Below are positions 8,588-58,536 of a DNA stretch of 64,000 nt, one piece after another. The DNA is from Streptomyces kanamyceticus. GTDB taxonomy: Bacteria > Actinomycetota > Actinomycetes > Streptomycetales > Streptomycetaceae. Every line of letters begins with the position of its first letter. Positions within the stretch are counted from its first letter, which is position 1. Location: assembly GCF_008704495.1 (NCBI RefSeq), contig NZ_CP023699.1, positions 1,612,001 to 1,676,000 of the forward strand. Direction: 5' to 3'. The notes under the pieces were generated by a model. That model saw nothing but the letters and a program-made list of their open reading frames with translations. It searched no databases and had not been told where the DNA came from. Both the position numbers and the translations under genes were made by a program.

Positions 8588-8690
8588 GTGTTGGGTCGGG
8601 GACGAGACGCCGTGCACCGTTTCCGGTGTCGGTTTTCCCATCCCCGCCCGCCGAACCGGACGTGCCCGTTGGCCGAGCATCCAGCTCTCC
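8588..8690 (-). mobile_element. Group II intron 3' end (domains V and VI)
   Basis: On the minus strand 8687-8653 folds as a textbook domain V. GAGCTGGAT pairs with GTCCGGTTC, leaving a 2-nt AC bulge, and a distal GCTCG/CGGGC helix has a 5-nt loop. The catalytic AGC triad is at the 5' base. A GC-rich domain VI-like hairpin follows to about 8590 (GGGGA pairing with TCCCC), and the junction to istB sequence reads AACAC/ATGG. No reverse-transcriptase gene is recognisable upstream, so this is a truncated intron inserted in istB. Confidence 0.72.
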
Positions 8691-42362: not shown

Positions 42363-43733
42363 CTAGGCCGTACGCAGATAGCGGTCGAGGACACGGACGC
42401 CGAAGTGCAGTGCGTCGACGGGGACGCATTCGTCGACCCCGTGGAAGAGCGCCTGGTAGTCGAAGTCCTCCGGTGTCCTCAGCGGCGAGAAGCCGTAGCC
42501 GGTGATGCCGAGCCGAGAGAACTGCTTGGCGTCCGTGCCGCCCGACATGCAGTACGGCACGACGTGCCCCTCTGGCGCGAACTCCTCGACGGCCGCACGC
42601 ATCTTCGCGTACGTCGGCGAGTCGACCGGCGCCTGCAGTGCCACCTCGCGGTGGTGGAACTCCCAGTCGACGTCAGGGCCCGTGAGCCGGTCAAGCGTGC
42701 GGCGGAACTCTTCCTCGCCGCCGGGCAGAAAGCGGCCGTCGACATAGGCCACGGCTTCCCCGGGGACCACATTGACCTTGTAGCCCGACTGCAGCATCGT
42801 CGGGTTGGCGCTGTTGCGGACGGTCGGCTCGACGAGGTCGGCGGTCGTTCCGAGCTTCTCGAGCAGCGCGTCGACGTCGAATCCGGGCGCCTCCGGGTCG
42901 GTCTCCAGGCCGTAGAGCGTGGCGAGTTCGACCAGCGAGGCCCGCACGGTCGGGGTGAGCCGCACCGGCCAGCGGTACTCCCCGATGCGGGTGACGGCGG
43001 CGGCGAGCCTGCTCACGGCGTTGGCGCGGTTGACCTTCGAGCCGTGGCCCGCGGTGCCGCGCGCGGTGAGTTTGAGCCAGCCGGTGCCGCGCTCGCCCGC
43101 CGCGATGGGGTAGATCTGGTTGCCACGCCCGTCGTGGAAGGTGAAGGCCCCCGACTCGCTGATGCCTTCCGTACAGCCTTCGAAGAGCGAGGCGTGCTGG
43201 TCGGCGAGGAATCCCGAGCCGTCCTCGGCGCTGGCCTCCTCGTCGGCGGTGAAGGCGATCACGATGTCCCGCCTGGGCCGCACTCCGGCGCGTGCCCAGC
43301 CCCGTACGACGGAGAGGATCATCGCGTCCATGTTCTTCATGTCGATCGCGCCGCGGCCCCAGACGACGCCGTCGCGGATCTCCCCGGAGAAGGGGTCCAC
43401 GCTCCAGTCGGCGGCCTGCGCGGGCACCACGTCCAGGTGGCCGTGGACGAGCAGCGCGTCGGCCGACGGGTCGGTGCCCTCGATGCGGGCGACGACGTTG
43501 GTGCGTCCCGGGGTGCGCTCCAGGAGGACGGGGGCCAGGCCCGCGTCGGCGAGCCGCTCGGCGCAGTACTCGGCGGCGGGCCGCTCGCGGCAGTCGCCGC
43601 TGCCGCGGTTGGTGGTGTCGATGCGGATGAGCTCGGAGGTGAACGCCACGACCTCGTCGAGGGCGCGGGCGTCCACCGAGGGGTCGTGGTCCGACTCCTG
43701 AGCCTGCTCCTGATCCTGCTGCTGGTCAGCCAT
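42363..43733 (-). CDS. M20 family metallopeptidase
   Basis: 456-aa dinuclear zinc peptidase. It has LVHGHLDVVPA, GRGAIDMKNMDAMIL with the bridging Asp, and TADEEASAEDG with the catalytic Glu. The dimerisation domain spans ~200-320, and the C-terminal metal His lies in HFGVRVLDRYLR. The Q/D-rich first 20 residues are disordered. ATG 43733 overlaps the M55 stop by 8 bases. Likely a dipeptidase or carboxypeptidase downstream of the D-aminopeptidase. Confidence 0.92.
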   Translation of the reverse strand: MADQQQDQEQAQESDHDPSVDARALDEVVAFTSELIRIDTTNRGSGDCRERPAAEYCAERLADAGLAPVLLERTPGRTNVVARIEGTDPSADALLVHGHLDVVPAQAADWSVDPFSGEIRDGVVWGRGAIDMKNMDAMILSVVRGWARAGVRPRRDIVIAFTADEEASAEDGSGFLADQHASLFEGCTEGISESGAFTFHDGRGNQIYPIAAGERGTGWLKLTARGTAGHGSKVNRANAVSRLAAAVTRIGEYRWPVRLTPTVRASLVELATLYGLETDPEAPGFDVDALLEKLGTTADLVEPTVRNSANPTMLQSGYKVNVVPGEAVAYVDGRFLPGGEEEFRRTLDRLTGPDVDWEFHHREVALQAPVDSPTYAKMRAAVEEFAPEGHVVPYCMSGGTDAKQFSRLGITGYGFSPLRTPEDFDYQALFHGVDECVPVDALHFGVRVLDRYLRTA

Positions 43734-44559
43734 ACTGCTCCTCCACGGCGGCAGAGGCGATCGTGGTAACCGCCTTGAAGGTACGGATCCCCTCGTACAT
43801 CGTCTCGCTGACATAGGCGACCTTGCGCTCCCCCGTACGGCGCACACCGGGCACCACGGTCGCCGCCATCGACAGGTGTTCCGCGTCGAACTCGACCTCC
43901 ACGGTGAACGGCCCGTCGGCCGCCGGTTCCCCGCGTACCGCGAGTCCCGCCGCCTCCTTCGCCGCCGACCTGATGTCGGCGGCGGTGCGGGCCGGGGTGC
44001 GGCAGACCGCCGCGTACCGCGAGACGTGGTCCTTCACGGCGACCTTCAGCGCGCCCGGCGCGTAGCCGAGCGCGTCCTCGCAGGCGAGGTCGTCGCCGGT
44101 GACGAGCACGACGGGGACGCCGTACTCGGCGACGACGCGCGCGTTCAGGAGCCCCTCGCTGGCGCGCACGCCGTTGAGCCACACGCCGGTGATCTGGTTG
44201 GCCAGGTAGGTGTGCGCGAGGACGCCCTCCATGCCGGCGCCCGCGTGGTAGCCGATGAACGCGATGCCGTCCACGTCACCGTGCTGCACGCCCTCCACCA
44301 TGGACAGCGACTTGTGCCGCCCGGTGAGCATCTCGGCCCGCTCGTCCAGCTCTTCGAGGAGCAGGTTGCGCATGGTCCAGTGCGCCTCGTTGATGAGCAC
44401 CTCGTCGGCGCCGCCGTCGAAGAAGCCGAGCACGGCGGCGTTGACGTCCGAGGTGAACATCGCCCTGCACCGCTCCCATTGAGCGGTGCCCGGCAGCACG
44501 TCGGCCGGCCAGGTCACTCCCGTGGCGCCCTCCATGTCGGCGCTGATGAGGATCTTCAT
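43726..44559 (-). CDS. M55 D-aminopeptidase (DppA-like)
   Basis: 277-aa peptidase of the DppA family, which hydrolyses D-Ala-D-Ala-type peptides. It has the metal motif ISADMEGATGV, INEAHWTMRNLLLEEL, FIGYHAGAGMEG and LVTGDDLACEDALGYAPG. It is the first gene of the peptidase operon M55-M20-S9-S66. In Bacillus, dppA sits with a dipeptide transporter; here a comparable transporter lies 2-7 kb away in another operon. Confidence 0.93.
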   Translation of the reverse strand: MKILISADMEGATGVTWPADVLPGTAQWERCRAMFTSDVNAAVLGFFDGGADEVLINEAHWTMRNLLLEELDERAEMLTGRHKSLSMVEGVQHGDVDGIAFIGYHAGAGMEGVLAHTYLANQITGVWLNGVRASEGLLNARVVAEYGVPVVLVTGDDLACEDALGYAPGALKVAVKDHVSRYAAVCRTPARTAADIRSAAKEAAGLAVRGEPAADGPFTVEVEFDAEHLSMAATVVPGVRRTGERKVAYVSETMYEGIRTFKAVTTIASAAVEEQYG

Positions 44560-44660: not shown

Positions 44661-44930
44661 TCAGCGCATCCACTCCGAATAGAAGTTGGGCAGGCCGGGC
44701 TGGGGGTCGCTGACGCAGGTGGCCTCGTGGTACTTGGGGTTCTGTGCCAGGTCGCTCTGCATCTGGTCGTAGCAGGCCTGCCAGGAGTCGAACGACTCTC
44801 CCCCGACGGGCTGCCAGCCGTCACCGGGCGGCGGGCCCGCGGCGAAGGCGGTGGAGCTGGTCAGCGGAATGGCGATCGCCGCTGCTCCGACAGCGAGACC
44901 GATACCGACACGAGTACGCCAGGACTTCAT
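44661..44930 (-). CDS. Small secreted protein of unknown function
   Basis: 89-aa protein with a clear Sec signal (MKSWRTRVGIGLAVGAAAIA, cleavage after STAFA). The mature part is ~52 aa, Trp/Tyr-rich with two cysteines (WQACYDQMQSDL, EATCVSDPQPG) that could form a disulfide. ATG 44930 is chosen because AGGAG lies 6 bases upstream. No family is recognised. Confidence 0.75.
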   Translation of the reverse strand: MKSWRTRVGIGLAVGAAAIAIPLTSSTAFAAGPPPGDGWQPVGGESFDSWQACYDQMQSDLAQNPKYHEATCVSDPQPGLPNFYSEWMR

Positions 44931-45105: not shown

Positions 45106-46269
45106 TCACGGCGCGGGCTGCTGCTGGGTGACGCAGTGGATTCCGCCGCCGCCCGCGCCGAGCCTGTCGATGTCGATCTGTTCGACGGTCCGCCCCGGGT
45201 ACAGCCGGGCGAGCGCCGCCTTCGCCGCCGCGTCCGCCGTGGAATCGCCGAAGTGCGCGCAGATCACCGCGTCGTTGCAGAGGTAGTAGTTGGCGTACGA
45301 GGCGAGGAACTTCGGGTCCCTGGAACGGATCTTGTCGTAGTCGGGGCCCTGCAGCTTGGTCGCCGCGATCGGCTGTCCTTCGGCGTTCGTGGCGGCGGAC
45401 AGGACCCGGAACTGTGCGCGGGCGTCCTTGGCGTACGCGTCGTCGTCCGCGTCCAGGGGCCACTGCACGAGCGCCCTGCCGGAGGCGAGGAAGCGCGAGG
45501 TGGCGTCGACGTGGTCGTCGGTGATGTCCTGGCCGCGCACGCCGTCGAACCAGATGACCTGGTCGGCGCCGTACGCCTCGCACATCGCGTCGGTAAGGTG
45601 CGCCTCGGACATCCCGGGGTTGCGGTTGCCGTTGAGGAGGCTGCTGCGCGTGGCCATCAGGGTGCCCGCGCCGTCCTGCTCGATCGCGCCGCCCTCGCCC
45701 ACCAGGCCCGCGCCGGTGAACCTCACCCCGGCCAGGGCGGCGATCCGCTCGGCGACGCGCGCGTCCTTGGCGTGCTGCTGCTTGCCGCCCCAGCCGTTGA
45801 AGTGCAGCCCGACCGCGTCGAGGCCGCCCGCGCCGTCGGTGCGGAACACCGGTCCCGAGTCGCGCATCCAGCAGTCGTCGACCGGCACGGAGGTGATGAT
45901 CTCGACCGAACTCCCGCATAGGGAGCGGGCCTTGGCGGCGCTCGCCGGGTTGGCGCACAGGGTGACGGGCTCGTGCTTGGCGACCGTCCGCGCGATGAGG
46001 GCTATGTCGGCCTGGACCCCGCCGAGTTGGCGCCCCCAGATCGCGCTGCTGTCCGGCCAGGCCATCCACGTCTTGGTGTGCCTGACGTCCTCGGCGGGGA
46101 CGGCGAAGGAGCCCGCCCGGGCCGCCCCGCGCGGCCCCGGCGTGGATCCGGCCCAGGCCTCGGCGCCCACCAGGGCCGCGCCCGCGGTGGCCGCCGCGGC
46201 CGCCGTCAGGAACGTGCGCCTGCTCGGGGACGGCCTCTTGTGGCGAGGTGTTGTGGGATGGTCGTTCAC
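45106..46269 (-). CDS. Tat-exported agmatine deiminase-family protein (ADI 1)
   Basis: 387-aa guanidine-modifying enzyme. A twin-arginine signal (SRRTFLTAAAAATAGAALVG) is followed by the agmatine deiminase propeller: TKTWMAWPDSSAIWG, DDCWMRDSGPVF, VGEGGAIEQDGAGT, GNRNPGMS and DDHVDATSRF. The nucleophile is Cys379 in GAGGGGIHCVTQQ. It should convert agmatine to N-carbamoylputrescine plus ammonia outside the membrane. GTG 46269 has AGGAGG upstream. It lies downstream of the ABC transporter, separated by a 10-bp repeat tract. Substrate not proven. Confidence 0.9.
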   Translation of the reverse strand: MNDHPTTPRHKRPSPSRRTFLTAAAAATAGAALVGAEAWAGSTPGPRGAARAGSFAVPAEDVRHTKTWMAWPDSSAIWGRQLGGVQADIALIARTVAKHEPVTLCANPASAAKARSLCGSSVEIITSVPVDDCWMRDSGPVFRTDGAGGLDAVGLHFNGWGGKQQHAKDARVAERIAALAGVRFTGAGLVGEGGAIEQDGAGTLMATRSSLLNGNRNPGMSEAHLTDAMCEAYGADQVIWFDGVRGQDITDDHVDATSRFLASGRALVQWPLDADDDAYAKDARAQFRVLSAATNAEGQPIAATKLQGPDYDKIRSRDPKFLASYANYYLCNDAVICAHFGDSTADAAAKAALARLYPGRTVEQIDIDRLGAGGGGIHCVTQQQPAP

Positions 46270-46281
46270 TGGTGCCTCCTT

Positions 46282-46331
46282 GGTTGGACGGGGTTGGACG
46301 GGGTTGGACGGTGTTGGACGGGGTTGGACGG
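46282..46331. repeat. Five tandem copies of a 10-bp unit
   Basis: GGTTGGACGG is repeated head to tail five times (the fourth copy is TGTTGGACGG), between the ATPase stop and the RBS of ADI 1. It occupies the whole intercistronic gap. Confidence 0.95.
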
Positions 46332-46341
46332 AGTGTGCGGG

Positions 46342-47175
46342 TCAGAGGGTGAGGGCCCGGCGGGCCGCCGCGATGCGCTCCGGGTCCCAGCCCGGGTGCG
46401 GGACGGAGTCCAGGAGCAGCCGGGTGTACGGGTGCGCGGGCGCGGCGAGGACGTCGGCGGTGGCGCCCGCCTCGACCACGGCGCCGTGGCGCATCACGAT
46501 GACGTCGTCCGTGACGCAGCGGACCACGCCGAGGTCGTGGGTGATGAAGAGGTAGCCGATCGGGGTGCGTTCGCGGATGTCGGCGAGCAGGTTGAGGATC
46601 TGTGCCTGCACCGACACGTCGAGCGCGGCGACCGCCTCGTCCAGGACGAGCACCGCGGGCTCCACGGCCAGGGCCCGCGCGATGGCGACGCGCTGGCGCT
46701 GCCCGCCGGAGAGCTGGCGGGGCAGCGCGTCGGCGGCGCGGGTGCCGAGGCCGACCTGGTCGAGGAGTTCGCGCACCCGCCGGGCGTGGTCGATGCGGGG
46801 GAAGTGCAGGCGCAGCGTTTCGCGCAGCACCGACTCGACGCTCGTGCGCGGGTCGAGGGAGAGGTAGGGGTCCTGGAAGACCATCTGCACCTCGCGGGCC
46901 CTGGCCAGACGCTGCGCGCGGCCGCGGACGCGTGCGGTGCGGGGCCTGCCGCGCACCTGGATCTCCCCCGCGTCGGCCCGCTCCAGGCCGACGATGATCC
47001 GGGCCGTGGTGGTCTTGCCGGAGCCGGACTCCCCGACGACGCCGAGGGACCCGCCATCGGGCACCGCGAAGGACACGTCGTCCACGGCCGCGACCTCGCC
47101 GAAGCTGCGCCGCAGTCCGCGCACCTCAAGCACGTGCGCGTCGGCGGGCCGAGAGGTCTCGGTGGGCTCAGGCAT
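46342..47175 (-). CDS. Oligopeptide/dipeptide-type ABC transporter ATPase (DppF-like)
   Basis: 277-aa ATPase with Walker A GESGSGKTTTARIIVGL, Q-loop QMVFQDPYLSLDPRTSVES, signature QLSGGQRQRVAIARALA and Walker B VLVLDEAVAALDVS. PHPGWDPERI ends a shortened C-terminal region. The usual Asp-Glu-Pro after Walker B is DEAVAALD here. It energises uptake together with the DppD-like ATPase. It overlaps that gene by 8 bases. Confidence 0.92.
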   Translation of the reverse strand: MPEPTETSRPADAHVLEVRGLRRSFGEVAAVDDVSFAVPDGGSLGVVGESGSGKTTTARIIVGLERADAGEIQVRGRPRTARVRGRAQRLARAREVQMVFQDPYLSLDPRTSVESVLRETLRLHFPRIDHARRVRELLDQVGLGTRAADALPRQLSGGQRQRVAIARALAVEPAVLVLDEAVAALDVSVQAQILNLLADIRERTPIGYLFITHDLGVVRCVTDDVIVMRHGAVVEAGATADVLAAPAHPYTRLLLDSVPHPGWDPERIAAARRALTL

Positions 47176-48172
47176 CGGCGGCGCTCCCTTCGAGCCGGTC
47201 GCTGTGGTGGCAGGCGGCGAGGTGCTCCGGGCGTCCCGGGGCGGTCCTGGGCCGTGGCGCCCGCTCGTCGCACACCTCGGTGGCGATCGCGCAGCGGGCG
47301 GCGAAGGCGCAGCCGGTCAGGGCCGTGCGCAGATCGGGTGGCTGGCCCTCGATGGCGCTGAGCCGTCCCTTCGCCGTCTCCAGACGCGGCGTGGCGGCCA
47401 GCAGGGCCGCGGTGTAGGGGTGCCTGGGGTGGGCGAACAGCTCGTCGGCGGGGCCCTGTTCGGCGATCCGGCCCGCGTACATGACGTAGACGCGGTCGCT
47501 GATGGCCGCGGCCAGGTCGAGGTCGTGGGTGACGAAGAGCAGTCCGGTGCCGAACCGTTCGCGCAGCCGGGCGAGGAGGGCGACGACCTCGGCCTGGGTG
47601 GTGACGTCCAGGGCGGTGGTGGGTTCGTCGGCGAGCAGCAGGGCGGGGTCGCCCATGAGGGCCGCGGCGATCATGACGCGCTGCAGCATGCCGCCGGACA
47701 CCTGGCCGGGGTACTTGTGCAGGACACTCGCGTCCAGGCCGACGGCGTGGAGGAGTTCGGTGGCACGGGCGGTGGCGTCGGCGCGGCGCGTCGTGCGGAC
47801 GCTCTCGGTCCGGACGCTCTCGGTGAGGAAGTCGCCGATGCGGCGCAGCGGGTTGAGGGCGGCGCGCGGGTCCTGGAAGACCATGGCGGCGGTGCCGGTG
47901 CGCAGGGCCCGCAGCCGTCCTTCGTCCATCGTGAGGACGTCGTCGCCGTTGACGCGGACGGCGCCCTCGGTGACGGCGCCGGGCGGCAGCAGGCGCAGCG
48001 CGCTGCGCGAGGTGAGGGTCTTTCCCGAGCCCGACTCGCCCACGAGGGAGACGGTCTCGCCCGCGGCGACGGTGAGGTCGACGCCGTCCAGGACGGGGCG
48101 GGCCGTGCCGGGCAGGGTGATGCGAAGGCCTTGGATGTCGAGCACGTGCTCCGGGATGGGCGCGGTGGTCAT
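47168..48172 (-). CDS. Oligopeptide/dipeptide-type ABC transporter ATPase (DppD-like)
   Basis: 334-aa ATPase. Walker A GESGSGKTLTSRSALRLLP, Q-loop AMVFQDPRAALNPLRRIG, signature QVSGGMLQRVMIAAALMG and LLLADEPTTALDVTTQAEVV. The C-terminal oligopeptide-transporter extension has GCAFAARCAIATEVC cysteines. An internal direct repeat (TESVRTESVRT) is present near residue 118. It overlaps both neighbours. Confidence 0.93.
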   Translation of the reverse strand: MTTAPIPEHVLDIQGLRITLPGTARPVLDGVDLTVAAGETVSLVGESGSGKTLTSRSALRLLPPGAVTEGAVRVNGDDVLTMDEGRLRALRTGTAAMVFQDPRAALNPLRRIGDFLTESVRTESVRTTRRADATARATELLHAVGLDASVLHKYPGQVSGGMLQRVMIAAALMGDPALLLADEPTTALDVTTQAEVVALLARLRERFGTGLLFVTHDLDLAAAISDRVYVMYAGRIAEQGPADELFAHPRHPYTAALLAATPRLETAKGRLSAIEGQPPDLRTALTGCAFAARCAIATEVCDERAPRPRTAPGRPEHLAACHHSDRLEGSAADA

Positions 48173-49023
48173 CGGTCCCTCCTGGCGACCTGGTCGGCCC
48201 AGCGTTCGCCGACGACGTTGAAGGCGACCACGGTCAGCACGATGAACACGCAGGGCAGCACGGCGGAGAGCGGGTAGCCGTGCTGGATCGCGGTCTGGCC
48301 GTCGAAGACCATGCGGCCCCAGTCGGGGGTGAGCGGGGGCACGCCGAGTCCGAGGAAGGACAGGCCCGCGAGGTCCATCAGGGCGTAGCCGAAGTTGATG
48401 GTGGCCTGGGCGAGGACGACGGGTGCGATGTTGGGCAGGACGTGGCGCAGGCAGATCTGGAGCGCCGAGTGGCCCTGGACCTGGTGGGCGCTGACGTAGG
48501 GGCGGGCCCGTTCGGCGAGCACCAGGGCGCGGGTGAGGCGGCTGACGTAGGGCAGGTAGGCGATGGCGAGGGCGAGGACCGGGGCGAGCAGGCCCTCTCC
48601 GTAGACGGAGATGATGAGGATCGCGAGGAGCAGTCCGGGGAAGGCGAAGACCAGTTCGGTGCTGCGGGAGAGCACGGAGTCGAGCCAGCCGCCCCGCCAG
48701 GCGGCGGCCGTGCCGATGGCGACCCCGGCGATGGTGGAGAAGGCCACCACTCCGAGGGGGCCGAGCAGTGAGGTGCGGGCGCCGAGGAGCAGCCGCGAGA
48801 GGGTGTCGCGCCCGGCGGCGTCCACGCCGAGCGGATGCTCGGCGGAGGGTCCGGCGAGTGCTCCGCCGAGGTCGACGGCGTTGGGGTCGTGCGGCACCAC
48901 CCAGGGGGCGAGCAGCGCGGCGGCGACGATGAGGGCGACGAGGGCCAGGCAGAGTACGTGGAGGGGTGAGCCACCGGCGCGGATCCTGGCCAGGCCGGGG
49001 CGGCGGGTGAGGACGGCGGTCAT
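48169..49023 (-). CDS. ABC transporter permease (DppC-like)
   Basis: 284-aa permease with about six membrane segments, an N-terminal oppC-type segment (LHVLCLALVALIVAAALLAP) and the HPLGVDAAGRDTLSRLLLGA motif of DppC/OppC. The EAA-type loop is HQVQGHSALQICLRHVLPNI. It overlaps the DppD and DppB genes by 4 bases each. Confidence 0.93.
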   Translation of the reverse strand: MTAVLTRRPGLARIRAGGSPLHVLCLALVALIVAAALLAPWVVPHDPNAVDLGGALAGPSAEHPLGVDAAGRDTLSRLLLGARTSLLGPLGVVAFSTIAGVAIGTAAAWRGGWLDSVLSRSTELVFAFPGLLLAILIISVYGEGLLAPVLALAIAYLPYVSRLTRALVLAERARPYVSAHQVQGHSALQICLRHVLPNIAPVVLAQATINFGYALMDLAGLSFLGLGVPPLTPDWGRMVFDGQTAIQHGYPLSAVLPCVFIVLTVVAFNVVGERWADQVARRDR

Positions 49024-49979
49024 GCGGCGGACCCCCTGGTGCCGAGTGTGAGCCGCGGGTCGACCAGCGGAAGGAGCAGGTCGACGATCAGGTTCACGGC
49101 CATGAACAGGGCGACGATGATCAGTGCGATGGCCTGGACGGTCGGGAAGTCCTTGGTGGTGGTGGAGAGTTCGAGGAGCTGGCCGATGCCGCCGACGCTG
49201 AAGGCGGTCTCGACGAGGATCGTGCAGACCAGGAGCGTGGAGACGACGAGCCCTGTGGTGGTCAGGACGGTGCCGAGCGAGTTGCGGAACACGTGGCGGC
49301 GGATCACCTGGCGTTCCGGCACGCCCCTGCTGCGGGCGACGGTGACGTGCTCACCGGCGAGCGCCTCGACCATCGCCGAGCGGGTGACCCGGGCCAGCAT
49401 CCCGATCAGATAGAGGGCGAGGGCGAGCGCGGGCAGCGTCAGGTGCCAGATCATGTCGCCGATGCCGTCGCCCGCGCCGCCGCTGGGGAACCAGCCGAGG
49501 CGTACGGCGAACAGGCCCTGGAGCAGCACGGCCGCGACGAAGGAGGGCGTGCCGACGGCGAACGTCGTGGCGAGAAGGATCGCGGAGTCGACGCGTCCGC
49601 CGCGCACGGCGGCGATCCTGCCGAGCAGCAGCCCGCCCGCCACGACCACGGCGAGCGCCATGGCGATGAGCAGCAGGGTGGTGGGCAGCCGGTCGGCGAG
49701 GAGGCGCGACACGTCGGTGCGGTAGGTGATGGACCGGCCGAAGTCGCCGCGCAGGACGCCACCGAGCCAGTCGAAGTACCGCACGGCGAACGGATCGTCC
49801 AGGTGGTACTGGGAGTTGATCGCCGCCACCGCTTCCGGCGACGCCGACCGGCCCGAGAGCAGGAAGCTCGCGGGGCTGCCCGGCGCCAGGTACATCGCGC
49901 CGAAGACCACGAACGACGCGGCGAGCAGGGTGGCGGCCATCTCGGCGACGCGCCGCGCCGCGAATCTGAGGAAGGTCAT
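49020..49979 (-). CDS. ABC transporter permease (DppB-like)
   Basis: 319-aa permease with six membrane segments. Typical DppB features are FLRFAARRVAEMAATLLAAS at the N-terminus, AINSQYHLDDPFAVRYFDWL, GDFGRSITYRTDVSRLLADR and the EAA loop VARSRGVPERQVIRRHVFRN. ATG 49979 overlaps the SBP stop (ATGA). Confidence 0.94.
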   Translation of the reverse strand: MTFLRFAARRVAEMAATLLAASFVVFGAMYLAPGSPASFLLSGRSASPEAVAAINSQYHLDDPFAVRYFDWLGGVLRGDFGRSITYRTDVSRLLADRLPTTLLLIAMALAVVVAGGLLLGRIAAVRGGRVDSAILLATTFAVGTPSFVAAVLLQGLFAVRLGWFPSGGAGDGIGDMIWHLTLPALALALYLIGMLARVTRSAMVEALAGEHVTVARSRGVPERQVIRRHVFRNSLGTVLTTTGLVVSTLLVCTILVETAFSVGGIGQLLELSTTTKDFPTVQAIALIIVALFMAVNLIVDLLLPLVDPRLTLGTRGSAA

Positions 49980-51661
49980 CGCGCGGCCCCCACATCGGCG
50001 GCCCACGGGTAGTACATGTACGCGATGGAGGTGGGCGCGCCCGTGATCCGCTTGTTGAGGAAGACGGCGGTGGGCCACTCCGCGACGGGGATCCAGGGCA
50101 GTTGCCCGTTGGCGCGCCGGTGGATCCTCGCCTCGATCGCGAGGCGCCGCTCGGGATCGTCGACGGCGGTGGCGCGCTCGACCAGTTCGTCGTACGCCTT
50201 GTCGCCGCGGCCCGCGAAGTTCAGATAGGCGCCGGTCTTGAAGTTCGTCAGGAAGTCGAGCGGATCGGTGATCGAGTCGTAGTACGTGAGCGGGAACATG
50301 TCGATGCCCTCGCGCGCGCCGGGGTCGGTGAACAGCGCGGTGAACGCGTTGGGGGCGATGGACTTGAGCCGGATGTCCAGGCCGATGCGGGTGCCCGCGT
50401 CCTGCACGGCGGTGGCGAGGAGCGAGACGTCCTGGCCGACCGAACTGGTCGCGATCGTCAGGGACTTGCCGGTGGCGCCCGCCTTCTTGATCAGCGCCTT
50501 GGCCCGGGCGAGGTCCGGGGCACCGGGCCTGGCCCCGTCGAAGGCCCGCTTCCTGGTCCGCTCGGGCGCACCCGCCCAGGCCGCGCGGGTGGTGAGCGCT
50601 CCGGTGGGGGTGCCCGCGCCGCCGAGACCGACCTGGACGAACCCGGCGCGGTCCAGGGCAAGGGAGAGGGCGCGCCGTACGCGGAGGTCGCCGAGCGCGC
50701 CCTTCATGTTGGTGATGGCGACGTTGACCGTGCTCAGGCCCTCGCCGAAGTACAGCTTGCCGACGCCGCTGCCGCGCAGCCTGGCGTAGCTCTCGGTCGG
50801 GATCAGATAGCCGCCGTCGGCGTCGCCGCTCAGCAGGGCGTTGGTGCGGGCCGACGCGTCGGGCAGGAAGCTGAAGACGACCTTGCCCGCCTTGGCGCGC
50901 CTGCCCCAGTAGCCGTCGAAGCGGTCGAGTTCGATGGACTGGCCCTTGTTCCAGGTGCCGAGTGCGAACGGGCCCGTGCAGGCCAGGCCGCCCGAGGTGC
51001 CGTAGTCCTTGCCCGCCGCCTCGACCCCGGCTTTGGACGCCACCACTCCGGCGGCGCTCGCCATGTACTGGGGGAACTGCGAGTCGGGCTTCTTGAGCCT
51101 GACGGTGACCTGGAGCGGTCCCGTCTTCCTGACCGAGGAGACGTTCTGGAAGACCTGCGCCCACGCGGCCGCGTTGTCCGGGTCCCGCTGCCGGTCGAGG
51201 CTGAACACCACGTCGTCGGCGGTCATCGTCCGGCCGTCGTGAAAACGCACGCCGCTTCGCAGGTCGTAGACCCAGGTGGTGCGGTCGGGGTGCGACGCCC
51301 GGCGGGCCAGGCCCGGCTCGGTGGTGAGCTCCGGCGTCCAGCGCAGGAGGCTCTCGCACACGTTGGAGAGCACCATGTTCTGCGGGTAGTCGAACGCCAC
51401 CGTGTAGTCGAGCGTGGGCGGTTCGGCGTACAGGGCCCAGGTGAAGGAGTCGATGTCGCCCTTGGCCCGGGGCGTCGAAGCCGACAGGGCGAAGTCGATT
51501 CCGGAGGCGTTCCTCGGCGGGCCAGCGCACGCCGCGAGCGCGACGAGCGAGGCCAGGGCAGCGGCCGCGGCGGCCAGCCGCCGGATCCGGATCCTGCCGC
51601 GTCTCGCGGCGCGGCAGGAGAGTGTTTTTCCCCTTGGTGGAGTGGTCATGGGGGCGCTCAC
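49976..51661 (-). CDS. ABC transporter substrate-binding lipoprotein (SBP_bac_5)
   Basis: 561-aa family-5 solute-binding protein. It has a lipoprotein signal (IRRLAAAAAALASLVALAAC), then the SBP_bac_5 body: PPTLDYTVAFDYPQNMVLSN, ESLLRWTPELTTEPGLA, GVRFHDGRTMTADDVVFSLD and DLRVRRALSLALDRAGF. These proteins bind peptides or other cations such as polyamine-like ligands. GTG 51661 lies 7 bases after the agmatine deiminase stop; ATG 51649 is an alternative. Its position between two agmatine deiminases suggests a guanidino or cationic peptide ligand. Confidence 0.93.
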   Translation of the reverse strand: MSAPMTTPPRGKTLSCRAARRGRIRIRRLAAAAAALASLVALAACAGPPRNASGIDFALSASTPRAKGDIDSFTWALYAEPPTLDYTVAFDYPQNMVLSNVCESLLRWTPELTTEPGLARRASHPDRTTWVYDLRSGVRFHDGRTMTADDVVFSLDRQRDPDNAAAWAQVFQNVSSVRKTGPLQVTVRLKKPDSQFPQYMASAAGVVASKAGVEAAGKDYGTSGGLACTGPFALGTWNKGQSIELDRFDGYWGRRAKAGKVVFSFLPDASARTNALLSGDADGGYLIPTESYARLRGSGVGKLYFGEGLSTVNVAITNMKGALGDLRVRRALSLALDRAGFVQVGLGGAGTPTGALTTRAAWAGAPERTRKRAFDGARPGAPDLARAKALIKKAGATGKSLTIATSSVGQDVSLLATAVQDAGTRIGLDIRLKSIAPNAFTALFTDPGAREGIDMFPLTYYDSITDPLDFLTNFKTGAYLNFAGRGDKAYDELVERATAVDDPERRLAIEARIHRRANGQLPWIPVAEWPTAVFLNKRITGAPTSIAYMYYPWAADVGAAR

Positions 51662-51668
51662 CCGGTCG

Positions 51669-52682
51669 TCACGCGCTGGGGCGGGCGGCGGGGATCTGCT
51701 GGGTGATGCAGTGGACTCCCCCGCCGCCGTAGGCGACGGCGGCCGCCCGCACGCCGACGACCTTGCGGCCGGGGTACGCGGCGGCGATCACCGCGAGCGC
51801 GTCCTCGTCGGCGGGCAGCCCGGCGACCGGCACGACGACACCGCCGTTGGCGACGTAGTAGTTGAGGTACGACACCTCGACCTCGCCACCGGTCACCTCG
51901 GTGAACACGGTCTGCGGCACGTCGACGATCTCCAGGGGGCGGCCCTTGGCGTCGGTGCTGGCCGCCAGGACGGCGCGGTTGGCGCGCATCCGGGCGTGGT
52001 CGGCGTGTGCCGGGTCCGCGGGCAGGGAGACGACGACCTTGCCGGGGGCGGCGAACGCGCAGACCCCGTCGACGTGCCCGTCCGTCTCGGTGTCGAGCAG
52101 CCCGCCGTACGGAAGCCAGATCACCTTCTCGACCCCGAGCAGGGACTTCAGTTCGGCCTCGATCTCCGCGCGGCTCAGGTCCGGGTTGCGGTTGGGGTGG
52201 AGCAGGCACTGCTCGGTGGTGATCAGCGTGCCCTCGCCGTCGACGGTGATCGCGCCGCCCTCCAGGATCATGTCGGAGGGCAGGCGCTCGACGCCGAGGT
52301 GGTCGAGCAGCAGCGCGCTGATCCGGTCGTCGGAGTCGTACGGGTGGTGCTTGCGGCCCCACGCGTTGAAGCGGAAGTCGACCCCGGCGCGGTGGCCGTC
52401 CCCGTCGAGGACGAACAGCGGCGCCGAGTCGCGGAACCACGAGTCGTCCAGGGGCAGTTCGAGCACGTCGACACCGTCACCGCACCGGGCACGGGCAGCG
52501 TCCCCGTACCCCGGCGGGGCGACCATGGTGACCGGCTCGAACTCGGCTATGGCGCGGGCGACTTGGGCGTACTCGCCCTGCACCTGGTCGAGCACGCCGT
52601 CCCACAGGTCGACGCGGGTGGGCCAGGCCATCAGACAGCCCTCGTGCTCGGACCATTCGGCGGGCATGCGGTACGCGGTCAT
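51669..52682 (-). CDS. aguA: Agmatine deiminase, cytosolic (ADI 2)
   Basis: 337-aa enzyme with no signal peptide, the usual length of bacterial AguA. Motifs are MPAEWSEHEGCLMAWPTRVD, DDSWFRDSAPLFVLDGDG, ILEGGAITVDGEGTLITTEQ, NRNPDLSR, TDGHVDGVCAF and the nucleophile Cys325 in GGGGVHCITQQ. It should release ammonia from agmatine to give N-carbamoylputrescine. It lies 52 bases after ureC and directly before the transporter genes, so it is probably in the urease operon. Confidence 0.93.
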   Translation of the reverse strand: MTAYRMPAEWSEHEGCLMAWPTRVDLWDGVLDQVQGEYAQVARAIAEFEPVTMVAPPGYGDAARARCGDGVDVLELPLDDSWFRDSAPLFVLDGDGHRAGVDFRFNAWGRKHHPYDSDDRISALLLDHLGVERLPSDMILEGGAITVDGEGTLITTEQCLLHPNRNPDLSRAEIEAELKSLLGVEKVIWLPYGGLLDTETDGHVDGVCAFAAPGKVVVSLPADPAHADHARMRANRAVLAASTDAKGRPLEIVDVPQTVFTEVTGGEVEVSYLNYYVANGGVVVPVAGLPADEDALAVIAAAYPGRKVVGVRAAAVAYGGGGVHCITQQIPAARPSA

Positions 52683-52734
52683 CGGGTGTCTCTTTTCTTC
52701 GCAGAGGTTCAGCGGGACGGGAAGTACGGAGAGG

Positions 52735-54483
52735 TCAGAGGAAGTAGAGGCGGCTCAGGGAGACCTCCTGCGCGGGCTCGGAGCGCACGGGGGCGCCGTC
52801 GAGGGTGACCAGGCCGGTCCGCGCGTCGACGTCGACCTGCCCGATCCGGTTGTTGCCGACCATGTCCGCGGGCCCGATGCCACGGGTGCCGCGCACGGCG
52901 ACGCGGCGGCGCCGGGTGGCCATCGCGTCGTGCGACCGCCCGAAGGAGCCCGATTCTGCGGCGGCCCGCGCGACGAAGGCCACGGAGATGTCGGCGGGCA
53001 CGGCGCCGTGCGCGCCGAACAGCGGTCCGAGTACGAGCGGTTCGCAGCTGTCGGTGGCGGCGTTGGGGTCACCGGTCACGCCATAGGCGGGCACGCCGGA
53101 CTTGAGGACCATCTGCGGCTTGGCGCCGAAGAACGGCGGGCGCCAGAGCACGACGTCGGCCATCTTGCCGACTTCGAGGGAGCCGACCTCGTGGGCAAGG
53201 CCGTGGGCCAGGGCGGGGTTGATGGTCAGCTTGGCGATGTAGCGCAGCACGCGCGCGTTGTCGTCCCGCTCGCCGTCGCCCTCCATCGGGCCCAGCTCGG
53301 CCTTCATCTTCCCGGCCATCGCGAAGGTCCGGCGCACGGTCTCGCCCGCCCGCCCCATGCCCTGCGCGTCCGAGGAGGTGATCCCGATGGCCCCCAGATC
53401 GTGCAGCACGTCCTCCGCGCCCATCGTCCCGGCCCGGATCCGGTCCCGGGCCATCGCCGCGTCACCGGGCAGATCCGTCTTCAGGTCATGGACCGAGACG
53501 ATCATCCCGTAGTGCTCGGCGACCGCGTCACGGCCGAACGGCAGCGTCGGATTGGTCGAGGAACCGATCACGTTCGGCACACCCGCCATCTTCAGCACGT
53601 TCGGCACGTGCCCGCCGCCGCAGCCCTCGATGTGGAAGGCGTGGATGGTACGCCCGTCGAGCACGCTGAGCGTGTCCTCCACCGACAGGCACTCGTTCAA
53701 CCCGTCACTGTGCAGCGCGACTTGGACGTCATGCTCCTCCGCCACCCGCAACGCCGTATCGAGCGCCCTGGTGTGCGCGCCGAGGTCCTCGTGCACCTTG
53801 AACCCGCAGGCACCGCCCTCGGCGAGCGCCTCCACGAGCGGTGCGGCGTCCGAGGACGAACCTCGCGCCAGGAAGCCGATGTTGACAGGCCAGGCGTCGA
53901 AGGCGTTGAACGCGTGACGCAGCGCCCAGGGCGAGTTGACACCCACGCCCCACATCGGGCCGAACTCCTGCCCGATGATCGTGGTCACACCGGACGCCAG
54001 CGACGCCTCCATGATCCGCGGCGACAGCAGGTGCACGTGGGTGTCGATCGCACCCGCGGTGGCGATGAGGCCCTCGCCGGAGATGATCGTGGTCCCGGTG
54101 CCGACGACGACGTCGACGCCGTCGAGGGTGTCGGGATTCCCCGCCCGCCCGATGGAAGCGATCCGCCCTTCCCGGATCCCGATCGACACCTTGCGAATGC
54201 CCTGCACGGCATCGATCACGACGACATTGCTGATCACGACGTCACACGTCTCACGCACCGCGGCGGCCTTCAGATGCAGCCCGTCACGCGCCGTCTTGCC
54301 GAAACCGGCGAGGAATTCGTCGCCGTGCTTCTGCGCGTCGGACTCGACCCGGATCACCAGACCCGAGTCGCCGAGCCGGACCCGGTCGCCCGCGCGCGGG
54401 CCGTGGACGGTGGCGTATTCGTACGGATCGATGTGCCGACTGCCCGGCGCGCAGTGATCGGCATGCCTGGTGGGCCTGCTCAT
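52735..54483 (-). CDS. ureC: Urease subunit alpha
   Basis: 582-aa catalytic subunit. Nickel ligands and the carbamylated lysine are all present: His149 and His151 (DTHVHLL), Lys229 (CGFKVHED), His258 (ALHSDGLNE), His284 (FHIEGCGGGH) and Asp372 (ITSSDAQGMGR). The mobile flap keeps the catalytic His332, but the usual Cys before it is Val (SVHDL). It pairs with the fused gamma-beta subunit upstream (ATGA overlap). No ureE, F, G or D genes are nearby, so maturation would need accessory proteins encoded elsewhere. It belongs to the second, AB-fused urease type of actinobacteria. Confidence 0.95.
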   Translation of the reverse strand: MSRPTRHADHCAPGSRHIDPYEYATVHGPRAGDRVRLGDSGLVIRVESDAQKHGDEFLAGFGKTARDGLHLKAAAVRETCDVVISNVVVIDAVQGIRKVSIGIREGRIASIGRAGNPDTLDGVDVVVGTGTTIISGEGLIATAGAIDTHVHLLSPRIMEASLASGVTTIIGQEFGPMWGVGVNSPWALRHAFNAFDAWPVNIGFLARGSSSDAAPLVEALAEGGACGFKVHEDLGAHTRALDTALRVAEEHDVQVALHSDGLNECLSVEDTLSVLDGRTIHAFHIEGCGGGHVPNVLKMAGVPNVIGSSTNPTLPFGRDAVAEHYGMIVSVHDLKTDLPGDAAMARDRIRAGTMGAEDVLHDLGAIGITSSDAQGMGRAGETVRRTFAMAGKMKAELGPMEGDGERDDNARVLRYIAKLTINPALAHGLAHEVGSLEVGKMADVVLWRPPFFGAKPQMVLKSGVPAYGVTGDPNAATDSCEPLVLGPLFGAHGAVPADISVAFVARAAAESGSFGRSHDAMATRRRRVAVRGTRGIGPADMVGNNRIGQVDVDARTGLVTLDGAPVRSEPAQEVSLSRLYFL

Positions 54484-55190
54484 GCGCGTACTCCTGCCGG
54501 GCTTTCGGTACTGCTCGCACCCAGGTAGCCGCAGGCCACCGCCTTGCGCAGGGCGTCTTTCTTCGCGCCCGGCGCATCCAGCGGGCCGTCCACCAGACCC
54601 GCGAAACCGATCGCGATCCGCTCGCCGCCGATGGGCAACAGCCCCACCTCAACACTCTCGCCGGGACCGAAACGCACCGAGGAGCCCGCGGGCACCGCAA
54701 GCCGCATCCCGTACGCCGCCGCACGGTCGAAGTCGAGCCGCGGATTGGCCTCGAAGAAGTGGAAGTGCGACGTCACGGAGACGGGCACGGTCGCGGTGTT
54801 GCGCACGCCCAGCGTCACGACCGGCTCGGGCGCAGCGACCTCCGTCGCCGGGAGTACGGCACCGGGGGCGTCGTCGCGCCGGGGCCACGCACCGAACGGT
54901 TCGCTGATGACCGCCAGCCGCGTGCCGTCGTCGAAGACGGCCTCGACCTGGATCTCGGTGACCACGTCGGCGACGCCGGGCAGGACGTCGTCGGGGCGGA
55001 GGACGGCACGGCCGCGCTCGACGGCCTCGGCGAGGCGGAGCCCGTCCCGCGCGGCCTCGCAGACGGTGTCGGCGATCAGCGCGGTGGCCTCGGGGACGTT
55101 GAGCCCGAGGCCGCGGGCGTGCCGGGACCGCGCGAGTTCGGCGGCCGTGAACAGCAGGAGCCGGTCACGTTCGGTGGGGGTCAGCGGCAT
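54480..55190 (-). CDS. ureAB: Urease gamma-beta fusion subunit
   Basis: 236-aa fusion. Residues 1-100 are UreA (PLTPTERDRLLLFTAAELAR, LNVPEATALIADTVCEAARD, PGVADVVTEIQVEAVFDDG). Residues ~105-230 are UreB (VRNTATVPVSVTSHFHFFEA, NPRLDFDRAAAYGMRLAVPA, IGFAGLVDG). ATG 55190 starts with the canonical UreA sequence; ATG 55238 would add a non-conserved extension. It is the first gene after the TGACTGAATTTTCAGTCA operator, 77 bases away. Confidence 0.94.
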   Translation of the reverse strand: MPLTPTERDRLLLFTAAELARSRHARGLGLNVPEATALIADTVCEAARDGLRLAEAVERGRAVLRPDDVLPGVADVVTEIQVEAVFDDGTRLAVISEPFGAWPRRDDAPGAVLPATEVAAPEPVVTLGVRNTATVPVSVTSHFHFFEANPRLDFDRAAAYGMRLAVPAGSSVRFGPGESVEVGLLPIGGERIAIGFAGLVDGPLDAPGAKKDALRKAVACGYLGASSTESPAGVRA

Positions 55191-55266
55191 GGGTGCATCA
55201 CTCGCTCCGGGAAGTTCGGCATGGCCTCGGCCGCTCATCGGCGGGCCAGCGGCATCACTGTGACAC

Positions 55267-55284
55267 TGACTGAATTTTCAGTCA
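55267..55284. promoter_or_regulatory. TetR-type operator upstream of the urease-deiminase-transporter operon
   Basis: TGACTGAATTTTCAGTCA is an 8-bp perfect inverted repeat (TGACTGAA/TTCAGTCA) with a TT centre. It lies between the end of a TetR gene and ureAB. The same element recurs at 58519 and in half-conserved form at 57841, both next to a paralogous TetR gene. Confidence 0.7.
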
Positions 55285-55340: not shown

Positions 55341-55922
55341 CTACTTCCCGCGCAGCAGCGCCAGCTCGGCGTCGATGGCGCCGCGCACCAGGTCGCGCGC
55401 GTGATCGAGCTGGAGTCCACCGCTGAGCCAGCGCATGCTGAGCCCCTCCAGGAGCGCGGTGAGCCGCTCGCCCGCCGCGGCGAGAGCGGGCGCCGGGGTC
55501 ATCGGCCGCACCTGCCCGAGCAGGGCGGCGACCTCCTGCACCCACACCAGCGTCGCCCTGGCGAGGTCCTCGCGAAGCACCTCGTCGAAGACGGCGCTGG
55601 CCCGCAGCTCGCCCCAGGCGGAGCTGTTCTCCCTGACCTCCGGGGTGTCCTGCAGTTCGAGCAGGAGGATCTCCTCCAACTCCTCGCGGGGGGCCAGGGG
55701 TTCGGCCTCGGGGTCGCGCCCCGTGGTGTAGCGCTCGGCGCGGTCGTTGATGAACTCCAGGGTGTGGCGCAGGATCCCCGTGCGGTCCTTGAAGTGGTAG
55801 TAGATCAACCCGGTCGAGACGCCCGCTTCGGCCGCGAGTTCTTCGACGCGCAGGCCGCGGACACCGCGACGGGCGATCAGCCGTGCGGCCGCTTCGAGGA
55901 TCTGAGTAGTGCGAGGCGCCAT
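55341..55922 (-). CDS. TetR/AcrR-family regulator 1
   Basis: 193-aa regulator. The HTH is at residues 5-50 (ILEAAARLIARRGVRGLRVE, ELAAEAGVSTGLIYYHFKDR). The ligand domain includes LLLELQDTPEVRENSSAWGE and LTALLEGLSMRWLSGGL. It is a close paralogue of the TetR at 57914, sharing VSTxLxYYHFKDRxGIL and RAERYTxG. It lies directly upstream of the operator and ureAB on the same strand, so it is the likely repressor of that operon. Confidence 0.92.
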   Translation of the reverse strand: MAPRTTQILEAAARLIARRGVRGLRVEELAAEAGVSTGLIYYHFKDRTGILRHTLEFINDRAERYTTGRDPEAEPLAPREELEEILLLELQDTPEVRENSSAWGELRASAVFDEVLREDLARATLVWVQEVAALLGQVRPMTPAPALAAAGERLTALLEGLSMRWLSGGLQLDHARDLVRGAIDAELALLRGK

Positions 55923-56010: not shown

Positions 56011-57732
56011 TCAGCCGCCCTGGTTGTGGCGGCTCATGACCACCGTGACGGGCCCTTCGCCGGGCACGGCCTCGACGAGGCGCGCGATGACGACGCTCTT
56101 CCCGTCCGGGCTGCGGACGCAGAAGGGACGTTCGTCGGCGAGGTCGTCGAAGGGGAGCTCGGTCACCGGTTCCGTCTCGATCCCGCGTACGCAGTCGGCG
56201 GGACTCAGCACGTATCCGGCGGCCACGAAGGCGTCGCTGTCGTCGGACAGGACGAACTCGGTGTCGGTCCGCTCCAGGTACCAGTCCGCGGTCTCGGCGG
56301 GAACGACCTTGCCCGCCGAGAGGTCGAACTCGTAGTCGGGGTCGGGGGCGGTGAGTTCGGCGTCCGTGTAGTCCGGCACGTACGCGCCCTCGGACGAGGG
56401 GGCGGGCGACGACGGCTTCGACGAGGGCCGGGGGGACGGCGTGTGGGGTTGGTGGGAGGTGTCGGAGGAATCGGCGGAATCCGAGGAACCGGAGGGGTCT
56501 CGTGCCGGGTCTCCGCGACGGTCGAGGAAGTAGTACGCCGCGCCGCCGACCGAGACGAGGAGCACCGCCGCGACCACCAGGGCCGCCCCGGCCCCGCGCC
56601 GTCGGCCGCCGCGGCCACGGCGGGTCCGGCGCGGTTCGGGGCCGGTGGCGGGTTCGGCAGAGGCGGCAGAGGCGGCGGAGGCAGCGGCGAGTGTCGGCTG
56701 GGCGTGCGTCGGCGCGTGACCGCCGGGCCCAGGACCGGGACCGGACCCAGGACCCGGACCGGGCCCAGAGCCGGGACCAGGCCCCGGTGCCGGTTCCGGC
56801 GCCCCGTCGCGCCCGGCGAGTTCGCTGCTGACCCCCCGCGGCAGCCACCCCTCCGTGAATTCGGGACGTGCTCCCATGACGGGATGCGCCCGCGCCGCCG
56901 TGATCAGTTCGGCCGGGTCAGGGCGGTCCTCCGGGCGCTTGGCCAGGCAGCGTCCCAGCAGCTCGTGCAGGTCGTGGGGCACCCTGGACAGGTCGGGCGC
57001 CTCGTGGACCACCCGGTACAGCGCTGCCGATTCGGGCCCGTCCCCGAAGGCGAGCACTCCCCCGGCCACGTACGCGGCGAGCGCGCCGAGCGCGAAGACG
57101 TCGGTCGCCGGGGTCACGGCCAAGCCCCGCGCCTGCTCGGGCGCCATGTACGCGGCGGTGCCGATCCGCAGTCCGGTGCCGGTCAGGCCCGTGGCATCGG
57201 CCGCGCGTGCGATGCCGAAGTCGATGACGCGGGGGCCGTCCTCGGCGATCAGCACGTTGGCCGGTTTGAGGTCCCGGTGGACGACCCCGGCCCAGTGGAT
57301 GGCCTGGAGCGCCTCCGCGATGCCCGCGACGAGCAGGAGCACCGTCCGTACGGGCAGCGGGCCGTGTCGTCGTACCACCTCCTGGAGGGAGAGTCCGGGT
57401 ACGTACGCGGTGGCGAGCCACGGTGTGGGGGCGTCCACTCCGGAGTCGACCACCTGCGCGGTGAACAGCCCGTGGATGCTCCGTGCGCTGGCCACTTCGT
57501 GGGCGAAGCGCCTGCGGAACTCGGGGTCGGCGGCGAACTCGTCCCGCACCGCTTTCAGGGCGATGGGCCGCCCGCCCGGCGTGTGGGCGAGGTACACGAC
57601 CCCCATGCCACCGGCGCCGAGCCTGGCGTGCAGGCGGTAGCCGCCGATCTCGCGGGGGTCGTCGGCCGACAGGGGCGCGTGGGCGGTCGGCGCGCCGGGC
57701 GGGCCGGGCACGCCGGGAGGCTGAGGGGACAT
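56011..57732 (-). CDS. Membrane-anchored Ser/Thr protein kinase (PknB-type)
   Basis: 573-aa protein. The kinase domain (residues ~30-290) has the G-loop LGAGGMGVVYLAHT, IALKAV lysine, VVHRDLKPANVLIAEDG, VIDFGIARA and YMAPEQARG. A Pro/Gly repeat linker (~325-360) leads to one membrane segment (GAALVVAAVLLVSVGGAAYY) and an extracytoplasmic domain of ~165 aa after a Ser/Pro stalk. The sensor domain matches no PASTA repeat and is unassigned. ATG 57732 is used. It is divergent from TetR 2, with the degenerate operator between them. Confidence 0.93.
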   Translation of the reverse strand: MSPQPPGVPGPPGAPTAHAPLSADDPREIGGYRLHARLGAGGMGVVYLAHTPGGRPIALKAVRDEFAADPEFRRRFAHEVASARSIHGLFTAQVVDSGVDAPTPWLATAYVPGLSLQEVVRRHGPLPVRTVLLLVAGIAEALQAIHWAGVVHRDLKPANVLIAEDGPRVIDFGIARAADATGLTGTGLRIGTAAYMAPEQARGLAVTPATDVFALGALAAYVAGGVLAFGDGPESAALYRVVHEAPDLSRVPHDLHELLGRCLAKRPEDRPDPAELITAARAHPVMGARPEFTEGWLPRGVSSELAGRDGAPEPAPGPGPGSGPGPGPGSGPGPGPGGHAPTHAQPTLAAASAASAASAEPATGPEPRRTRRGRGGRRRGAGAALVVAAVLLVSVGGAAYYFLDRRGDPARDPSGSSDSADSSDTSHQPHTPSPRPSSKPSSPAPSSEGAYVPDYTDAELTAPDPDYEFDLSAGKVVPAETADWYLERTDTEFVLSDDSDAFVAAGYVLSPADCVRGIETEPVTELPFDDLADERPFCVRSPDGKSVVIARLVEAVPGEGPVTVVMSRHNQGG

Positions 57733-57840
57733 GCGGTGGCTCTTTCGGCGAGAGGGCAGGGCCGAGGCACGAGACGAGACGAGACGAGTCGAGTCGGTGG
57801 CGCGGCGGCCGCGGGCCGCCACGAGGGATGATCGTGCCGC

Positions 57841-57858
57841 TAACTAAAGTTTCAGTCA
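57841..57858. promoter_or_regulatory. Half-conserved TetR-type operator
   Basis: TAACTAAAGTTTCAGTCA keeps the right half of the TGACTGAATTTTCAGTCA element exactly and has three changes in the left half plus one in the centre. It lies between the divergent kinase and TetR 2 genes, fitting autoregulation. Confidence 0.55.
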
Positions 57859-57913
57859 ATGTGAGACGATGCGTGCCGTCGATCAGCAGGCACAGCAGGC
57901 ACACCGGGAAGGC

Positions 57914-58525: not shown

Positions 58526-58536
58526 ATTTTCAGTCC
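58519..58536. promoter_or_regulatory. TetR-type operator upstream of agmatine deiminase 3
   Basis: TGACTGAATTTTCAGTCC matches the ureAB operator at 17 of 18 positions. It overlaps the end of TetR 2 and lies 185 bases upstream of the deiminase gene at 58721. Confidence 0.65.

Follow-up and report, generated by a model that had tools for sequence, protein, structure and literature searches.

The genes described here probably work as one co-regulated unit dedicated to guanidino compounds, a conclusion well supported by conservation among relatives and by a common operator. They lie within a 64,000-nucleotide stretch of the Streptomyces kanamyceticus genome (hereafter the window) and code for a urease-like pair (the fused UreAB, and UreC2), three deiminases, a five-gene ABC importer and two TetR proteins. 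Our best explanation, to which we assign a probability of about 0.4, is that this TetR-controlled unit uses guanidino compounds (agmatine or relatives) as a nitrogen source, with UreC2 acting on the ureido products; here we infer the substrates as well as the reaction and the metal of UreC2.

Gene layout and the importer

The core of the unit is a run of minus-strand genes (window positions 45106-55284):

54480-55238, minus: UreAB, fused urease gamma/beta subunit (NF009671, 311.7 bits; cut-off 243)
52735-54483, minus: UreC2, urease-alpha-like amidohydrolase of an accessory-free branch (TIGR01792, 644.8 bits, below the cut-off of 680)
51669-52682, minus: ADI2, deiminase without export signal (PF04371)
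49976-51661, minus: SBP, family-5 solute-binding protein of the importer (SBP_bac_5)
49020-49976, minus: ABC permease, DppB/NikB-like
48169-49023, minus: ABC permease, DppC/NikC-like
47168-48172, minus: ABC ATPase, DppD/NikD-like
46342-47175, minus: ABC ATPase, DppF/NikE-like
45106-46269, minus: ADI1, deiminase with Tat-like export signal (PF04371)

Coordinates and domain matches bear out the original prediction that every gene from ureAB to ADI1 is present on the minus strand. Its statement that the genes mostly overlap by 4-8 bases applies to four of the eight junctions: UreAB and UreC overlap by 4 bases, and the last three importer junctions by 4, 4 and 8, while the remainder consist of gaps of 52 (UreC-ADI2), 7 (ADI2-SBP) and 72 bases (last ATPase-ADI1) and a 1-base overlap between SBP and the first permease. 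No terminator-like site was found in the ATPase-ADI1 gap. A different, opposite-strand TetR gene is present in this region in 23 of 64 related loci (e.g. L017, 15392-16045), directly before ADI1 in 20 of the 23, which suggests separate control of ADI1.

Downstream of the cluster lie two peptidase genes (42363-44559, minus), one of family M20 and one of the D-aminopeptidase family M55. These were considered as members of the unit and rejected, as tblastn gave no match to them in the fetched stretches of the 64 relatives; one relative, L063, carries another M20-family gene. Between M55 and ADI1 there is a small protein (44661-44930, minus) that matches no Pfam family and whose start looks, by eye, like a signal peptide. 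Elsewhere in the window, an Rfam group II intron domain match (8590-8689, minus) barely exceeds its threshold (41.4 bits, cut-off 40).

The predicted dipeptide-type ABC transporter is present as a five-gene importer of the Dpp/Nik family, all the expected domain families (SBP_bac_5, BPD_transp_1, ABC_tran and oligo_HPY) being found. The best-scoring models for the permeases are NikC and the 'nickel' model Opp2B, and for the SBP Opp5A/NikA, so one might suppose that the importer supplies nickel, free or chelated, to the adjacent urease and that the deiminases are unrelated passengers. All the importer genes nevertheless score below the Nik equivalog cut-offs, and far below them for these best models; UreC2, moreover, is found without ureG or ureD over cut-off. 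Above all, ADI2 and the transporter remain together in loci that lack a linked urease, and we therefore consider a nickel importer very unlikely.

Conservation among relatives

This last point emerges from 64 loci obtained by a scan for the SBP, which are by design close SBP relatives and for which misses include truncated contigs. ADI2 is directly upstream of SBP in 59 of the 64, the two permeases are each present in 62, and the two ATPases in 62 and 63. UreC2 occurs in the same locus in 41, leaving 23 (some truncated) with the importer and no linked urease; ureG or ureD was found in none of the 64. Deiminase genes or gene pieces number two to seven in 61 loci, with one in a single locus and none in two. 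A gene for an NCS1-family permease precedes an ADI1-class deiminase in 13 of the 64, with an operator of its own in 12 of the 13 (e.g. L036, 15438-16889); this would be a second transporter type in the regulon.

A shared operator on both strands

The following features complete the cluster:

55267-55284: operator 1, perfect 18-bp palindrome upstream of ureAB, recurring in 60 of 64 relatives
57841-57858: operator 2, upstream of TetR2, 2 mismatches
58519-58536: operator 3, upstream of ADI3, 1 mismatch
55341-55922, minus: TetR1, TetR_N plus BetI-type C-terminal domain, candidate repressor
57869-58525, plus: TetR2, with the same domain pair as TetR1
58721-59875, plus: ADI3, deiminase with Tat-like and lipobox-like signal (PF04371)
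59902-60783, plus: DUF4436 membrane protein behind ADI3, possible member (homologue in 17 of 64 relatives)

Operator 1 reads TGACTGAA-NN-TTCAGTCA. The claim that the run stands behind one operator is correct in that this palindrome precedes ureAB, but two further copies serve the plus-strand genes TetR2 and ADI3; three operators on two strands rule out a single operator for a single operon. The window holds three sites where 0.04 would be expected (at most 3 mismatches), and the whole S. kanamyceticus genome (one contig, 10.13 Mb) has only three with at most 2 mismatches, all in the cluster, against 0 sites for the reversed pattern.

Among the relatives, 191 sites (at most 2 mismatches) were found in 60 of the 64 loci. 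Sorted by the nearest gene downstream within 450 bp, 115 precede a deiminase, 19 UreAB, 16 the NCS1 permease, 15 a kinase, 15 a TetR1-like gene, 7 a TetR2-like gene and 1 UreC, with no such gene for 3. The reversed pattern gave 32 matches in these loci which, among those listed, are the same sites offset by two bases, so shuffled palindromes were chosen as the control: 40 of these gave a mean of 0.0 matches and a maximum of 1. As the operator stays with the deiminase, UreAB and other genes across loci, the set is best described as a regulon whose member genes shift position. We infer that a TetR protein binds the operator and responds to a ligand. The operator was not found in the second UreC2-deiminase locus of S. 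kanamyceticus (L011).

Between the two TetR genes lies a Ser/Thr protein kinase gene (56011-57822, minus), a homologue of which occurs in 29 of the 64 relatives; an operator copy is found at most 450 bp upstream of 24 of 33 kinase genes or pieces in these loci.

Three deiminases, two of them with putative export signals

The original prediction named two agmatine deiminases. The cluster holds three, and none reaches the agmatine deiminase equivalog cut-off (TIGR03380, 381.8 bits): ADI1 scores 234.9, ADI2 337.6 and ADI3 270.5, and the homologue at L011 (303.0) is likewise below. A genome search with ADI2 matched four deiminase genes, one of which lies at 3.115 Mb and the other three in the window. 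All three window proteins belong to PF04371 and have the Asp, Glu, His, Asp and Cys that we take to be the catalytic residues. These are almost invariant across all deiminase classes in an alignment of 260 of 278 sequences or pieces (310-480 residues; 18 dropped).

With classes assigned by the best-matching window protein and signals called by a simple script, Tat-like signals are seen in 64 of 78 ADI1-class and 69 of 76 ADI3-class sequences (43 of the latter with a lipobox-like motif), but in only 1 of 75 of the ADI2 class and 0 of 31 of the L011 class. Among proteins of solved structure, ADI1 and ADI2 come closest to agmatine deiminases, although some of the closer solved entries carry peptidylarginine deiminase as depositor name. 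To the 4yt9/5ak7 group of peptidylarginine deiminases, ADI2 matches weakly (E about 1e-14) and ADI1 gives no match at E 0.001.

A distinct urease-like enzyme

The original prediction assumed urea hydrolysis. The catalytic and metal residues of urease are indeed kept, but UreC2 belongs to a branch distinct from the canonical ureases sampled and may act on another substrate. S. kanamyceticus has three ureC genes: that of the window, a second UreC2 copy (L011) and a canonical gene (L012). On the urease-alpha model TIGR01792 (cut-off 680 bits) the two UreC2 proteins fall below the threshold (644.8 and 639.8) and the canonical protein is well above it (868.7), whereas the broader subfamily model NF009686 is passed by the window UreC2 (744.4 versus 354).

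A UreC search of 150 Streptomyces genomes gave, among the matches listed, two classes with 77-94% or 46-49% identity to the window UreC2, the former in at least 88 of the 150 genomes. Of 20 picked UreC2 loci in the genus, all 20 have a deiminase and none has ureG or ureD; 17 are in one syntenic block adjoining leuB/ilvE, which is the position of L011. Of 20 picked canonical loci, by comparison, 0 have a deiminase and 19 have ureG. Over all UreC2 loci collected, a same-strand deiminase lies within 400 bp in 72 of 91; outside the genus, the fetched stretch contains a deiminase in only 8 of 22, which speaks against the route proposed below.

The UreC alignment retained 90 of 115 pieces (480-700 residues), 71 UreC2 and 19 canonical, and a tree of 55 of the 90 separates the two classes with 100/100 support, though branches on both sides are long. 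H134, H136, K217, H246, H272, D360 and H320 (presumably the metal ligands and catalytic His of urease) are each kept in at least 70 of the 71 UreC2 sequences. In most UreC2, compared with the 19 canonical sequences, the loop GGGTGP, in a region which we assume lines the substrate pocket, reads GQEFGP (G157Q, G158E) and is followed by a 4-residue deletion. A276C (71/71), A363G (70/71) and loss of C319 (69/71) also mark the class; S361A is present in 70 of 71 UreC2 and in 2 of 19 canonical sequences as well. The window set thus shares UreA, UreB and UreC architecture and metal ligands with the canonical ureABC of S. kanamyceticus, which is accompanied by ureG and ureD (L012), but is 46% identical to it, has the altered loop, lacks C319 and adjoins a deiminase instead of accessory genes. 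Predicted structures were set aside, mean pLDDT (33.0 for UreC2 from 11 rows, 50.2 for SBP from 15 rows) being too poor for use as evidence. A second accessory-linked urease class was also seen (L104-L110 and L112), 53-54% identical to the L012 UreC and with a ureG match in each.

Both UreD and UreG are present in the S. kanamyceticus genome, and UreG is over cut-off in 81 of the 88 UreC2 Streptomyces genomes (among the matches listed). The other 7 of the 88 (G017, G046, G088, G094, G102, G112 and G148) have no UreG over cut-off, and UreD is also below cut-off in 6 of them, G046 being the one with UreD; G094, with two contigs and rated 100% complete, has neither over cut-off. In 22 UreC2 genomes from other genera of the same taxonomic class, UreD is over cut-off in 6; UreG, sought in 17 of the 22, is over cut-off in one, and a second has a partial match where a contig ends. 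Searches for UreD and UreG in 25 UreC2 genomes, several of them drafts and the set chosen mainly for a missing accessory protein, found neither over cut-off in 21, with some weak matches of 24-46 bits.

An AguB-like amidase in two Nonomuraea loci

In both Nonomuraea loci there is no linked urease, and an AguB-like carbon-nitrogen hydrolase is located between ADI2 and SBP. This apparent replacement speaks for UreC2 acting on ureido compounds; against it, the replacement concerns two loci of one genus, and a UreC2 is encoded elsewhere in the N. endophytica genome, although none was matched in N. spiralis. The two AguB-like genes score 222 and 234 bits (cut-off 410). The window unit has no N-carbamoylputrescine amidase, and these two of the 64 relatives are the ones with an AguB-like gene, below cut-off in each.

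The best of six AguB-like matches in S. kanamyceticus (260 bits) scores above both Nonomuraea genes. A dihydropyrimidinase scoring over its own cut-off is encoded alongside it, and it contains a CYDRHFPEG motif, which we take as a mark of beta-ureidopropionase-like enzymes; given motif and neighbour, we read it as such and rejected it as AguB. Since it outscores the Nonomuraea genes, S. kanamyceticus itself may nonetheless have AguB activity.

From the 23 loci without linked UreC2, 19 genomes were followed up, four short or truncated loci being left out. UreC2 is present elsewhere in 14 and absent from 5, and all 5 have a canonical urease; in 4 of the 5 the fetched locus has no AguB-like gene either, and these 4, with canonical urease only, count against a ureido route.

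On deeper branches, UreAB/UreC2 is found beside spermidine/putrescine-type ABC genes, which share its strand in L139 but converge with it in L130 and L133. The convergence in two of these three loci slightly lowers the probability that UreC2 cleaves ureido products, as does the score of the S. kanamyceticus AguB-like gene. When pot-type families were tested in L130 and L139, only the L130 ATPase was over a cut-off; a basic-amino-acid-type SBP gene nearby in L135 is below cut-off. An amidohydrolase-like gene (by eye) is near UreC2 in L130, L133, L135 and L139, with no NCBIfam match at E 1e-10 for those of L130, L135 and L139.

A proposed route and its alternatives

Under our best explanation, exported ADI1 and ADI3 and cytoplasmic ADI2 would convert a guanidino to a ureido group with release of ammonia, the ABC importer would take up the guanidino compound, the ureido compound or both, and UreAB/UreC2 would hydrolyse the ureido (N-carbamoyl) group, with amine, CO2 and ammonia as products, standing in for AguB of the AguA-AguB route. 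That UreC2 cleaves the ureido products of the deiminases is a tentative element of this scheme. More tentatively still, UreAB/UreC2 could be a ureido (N-carbamoyl-amine) hydrolase on a urease scaffold rather than a urease, maturing without UreD/UreG, perhaps with another metal; the protein annotated as urease in Streptomyces and its relatives would then be the missing second enzyme of their guanidino deiminase pathways.

With the catalytic urease residues kept, UreC2 may also hydrolyse urea, and this leads to the main rival, which we consider rather unlikely: a deiminase of the set would turn free guanidine into urea, and UreAB/UreC2, as a true urease, would complete nitrogen release. Deimination of free guanidine does yield urea, and all five genomes that have the unit but no UreC2 have a canonical urease. 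Guanidinase-urease pairs are known elsewhere, according to the portions of PMC12186494 and PMC11410670 covered. On the other hand, the window contains no ykkC-type guanidine riboswitch (Rfam, gathering thresholds), the active-site loop of UreC2 is altered, and many genomes would have little need of a second, divergent urease, UreG being a sign of a canonical urease in those 81 of 88 UreC2 genomes (among the matches listed). The AguB-like amidase occupying the same slot in Nonomuraea also fits a ureido compound better than urea.

Two further alternatives concern the substrate. The original prediction of a dedicated nitrogen-scavenging route for guanidino compounds or arginine-rich peptides is well supported for the former by conservation and operator, and looks less likely for the latter. 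In a peptide route, exported deiminases would citrullinate arginine peptides, the importer would take these up, and M55 and M20 would degrade them; the importer family, the Tat-like signals of ADI1 and ADI3, the downstream peptidase genes and the M20-family gene of L063 are all compatible with this. We judge it improbable, however, in that the window M55 and M20 genes are unmatched in the relatives, the solved structures nearest to ADI1 and ADI2 are agmatine deiminases, with ADI1 failing to match 4yt9 or 5ak7, and UreC2 is left unexplained. Scarcely more probable is that the unit handles one particular guanidino natural product or antibiotic and does not scavenge nitrogen generally. The presence of as many as seven deiminase genes or pieces in one locus, of two export-signal classes and of dedicated TetR proteins would suit such a role, but none of the recurrent neighbours inspected, part of which are named, was recognised as a gene for biosynthesis or resistance.

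Should our best explanation be correct, the second 'urease' of at least 88 of 150 sampled Streptomyces genomes (among the matches listed) carries the wrong assignment, dedicated chaperones are not needed for a urease-type metal site to mature, and a handful of purified proteins would suffice to test a regulated guanidino-nitrogen route in soil bacteria. Should UreC2 turn out to hydrolyse urea, the support for the co-regulated deiminase-transporter unit and for its operator remains good.

Comparison with known systems

The original prediction knew of no such set as a described system, and in the open-access literature, itself weak evidence of absence, we likewise found no description of a deiminase-transporter-urease set or of the operator, nor a paper joining ure(AB)C to a deiminase. 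Papers of 2008 (PMC2492869) and 2017 (PMC5489568), in the parts covered, already point out that Streptomyces has a ure(AB)C lacking accessory genes. SCO5525-5526, with SCO5527, has, as described, the same gene layout (fused AB, UreC and no accessory genes). The covered text of PMC3293853 calls SCO5525-5526 urea-utilising and counts both SCO5527 and SCO6414 as arginine-decarboxylase pathway homologues; in that of PMC4991794, SCO5526-SCO5524 are given as nrdABS, which conflicts with the urease naming. Within the text covered, the papers on SCO5525-5526 treat ure(AB)C as urea-utilising or as urease, with no link to a deiminase or another substrate.

The guanidine carboxylase and guanidinase systems, as far as the covered parts of PMC12186494 and PMC11410670 describe them, also obtain nitrogen from guanidino compounds and involve ABC or APC transporters. 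The window differs from them in having no guanidine riboswitch, and in its unit only the PF04371 deiminases are recognised as guanidino-acting. Another close parallel is the AguA-AguB agmatine pathway of Pseudomonas aeruginosa, described in the part of PMC9397018 covered. A PF04371 deiminase is the first step in both, and an AguB-like amidase is in the gene run of the two Nonomuraea loci. The present unit differs in usually having several deiminases, with two export-signal classes, a dedicated ABC importer and a TetR operator, and, in the window, a urease-like enzyme in the place of AguB.
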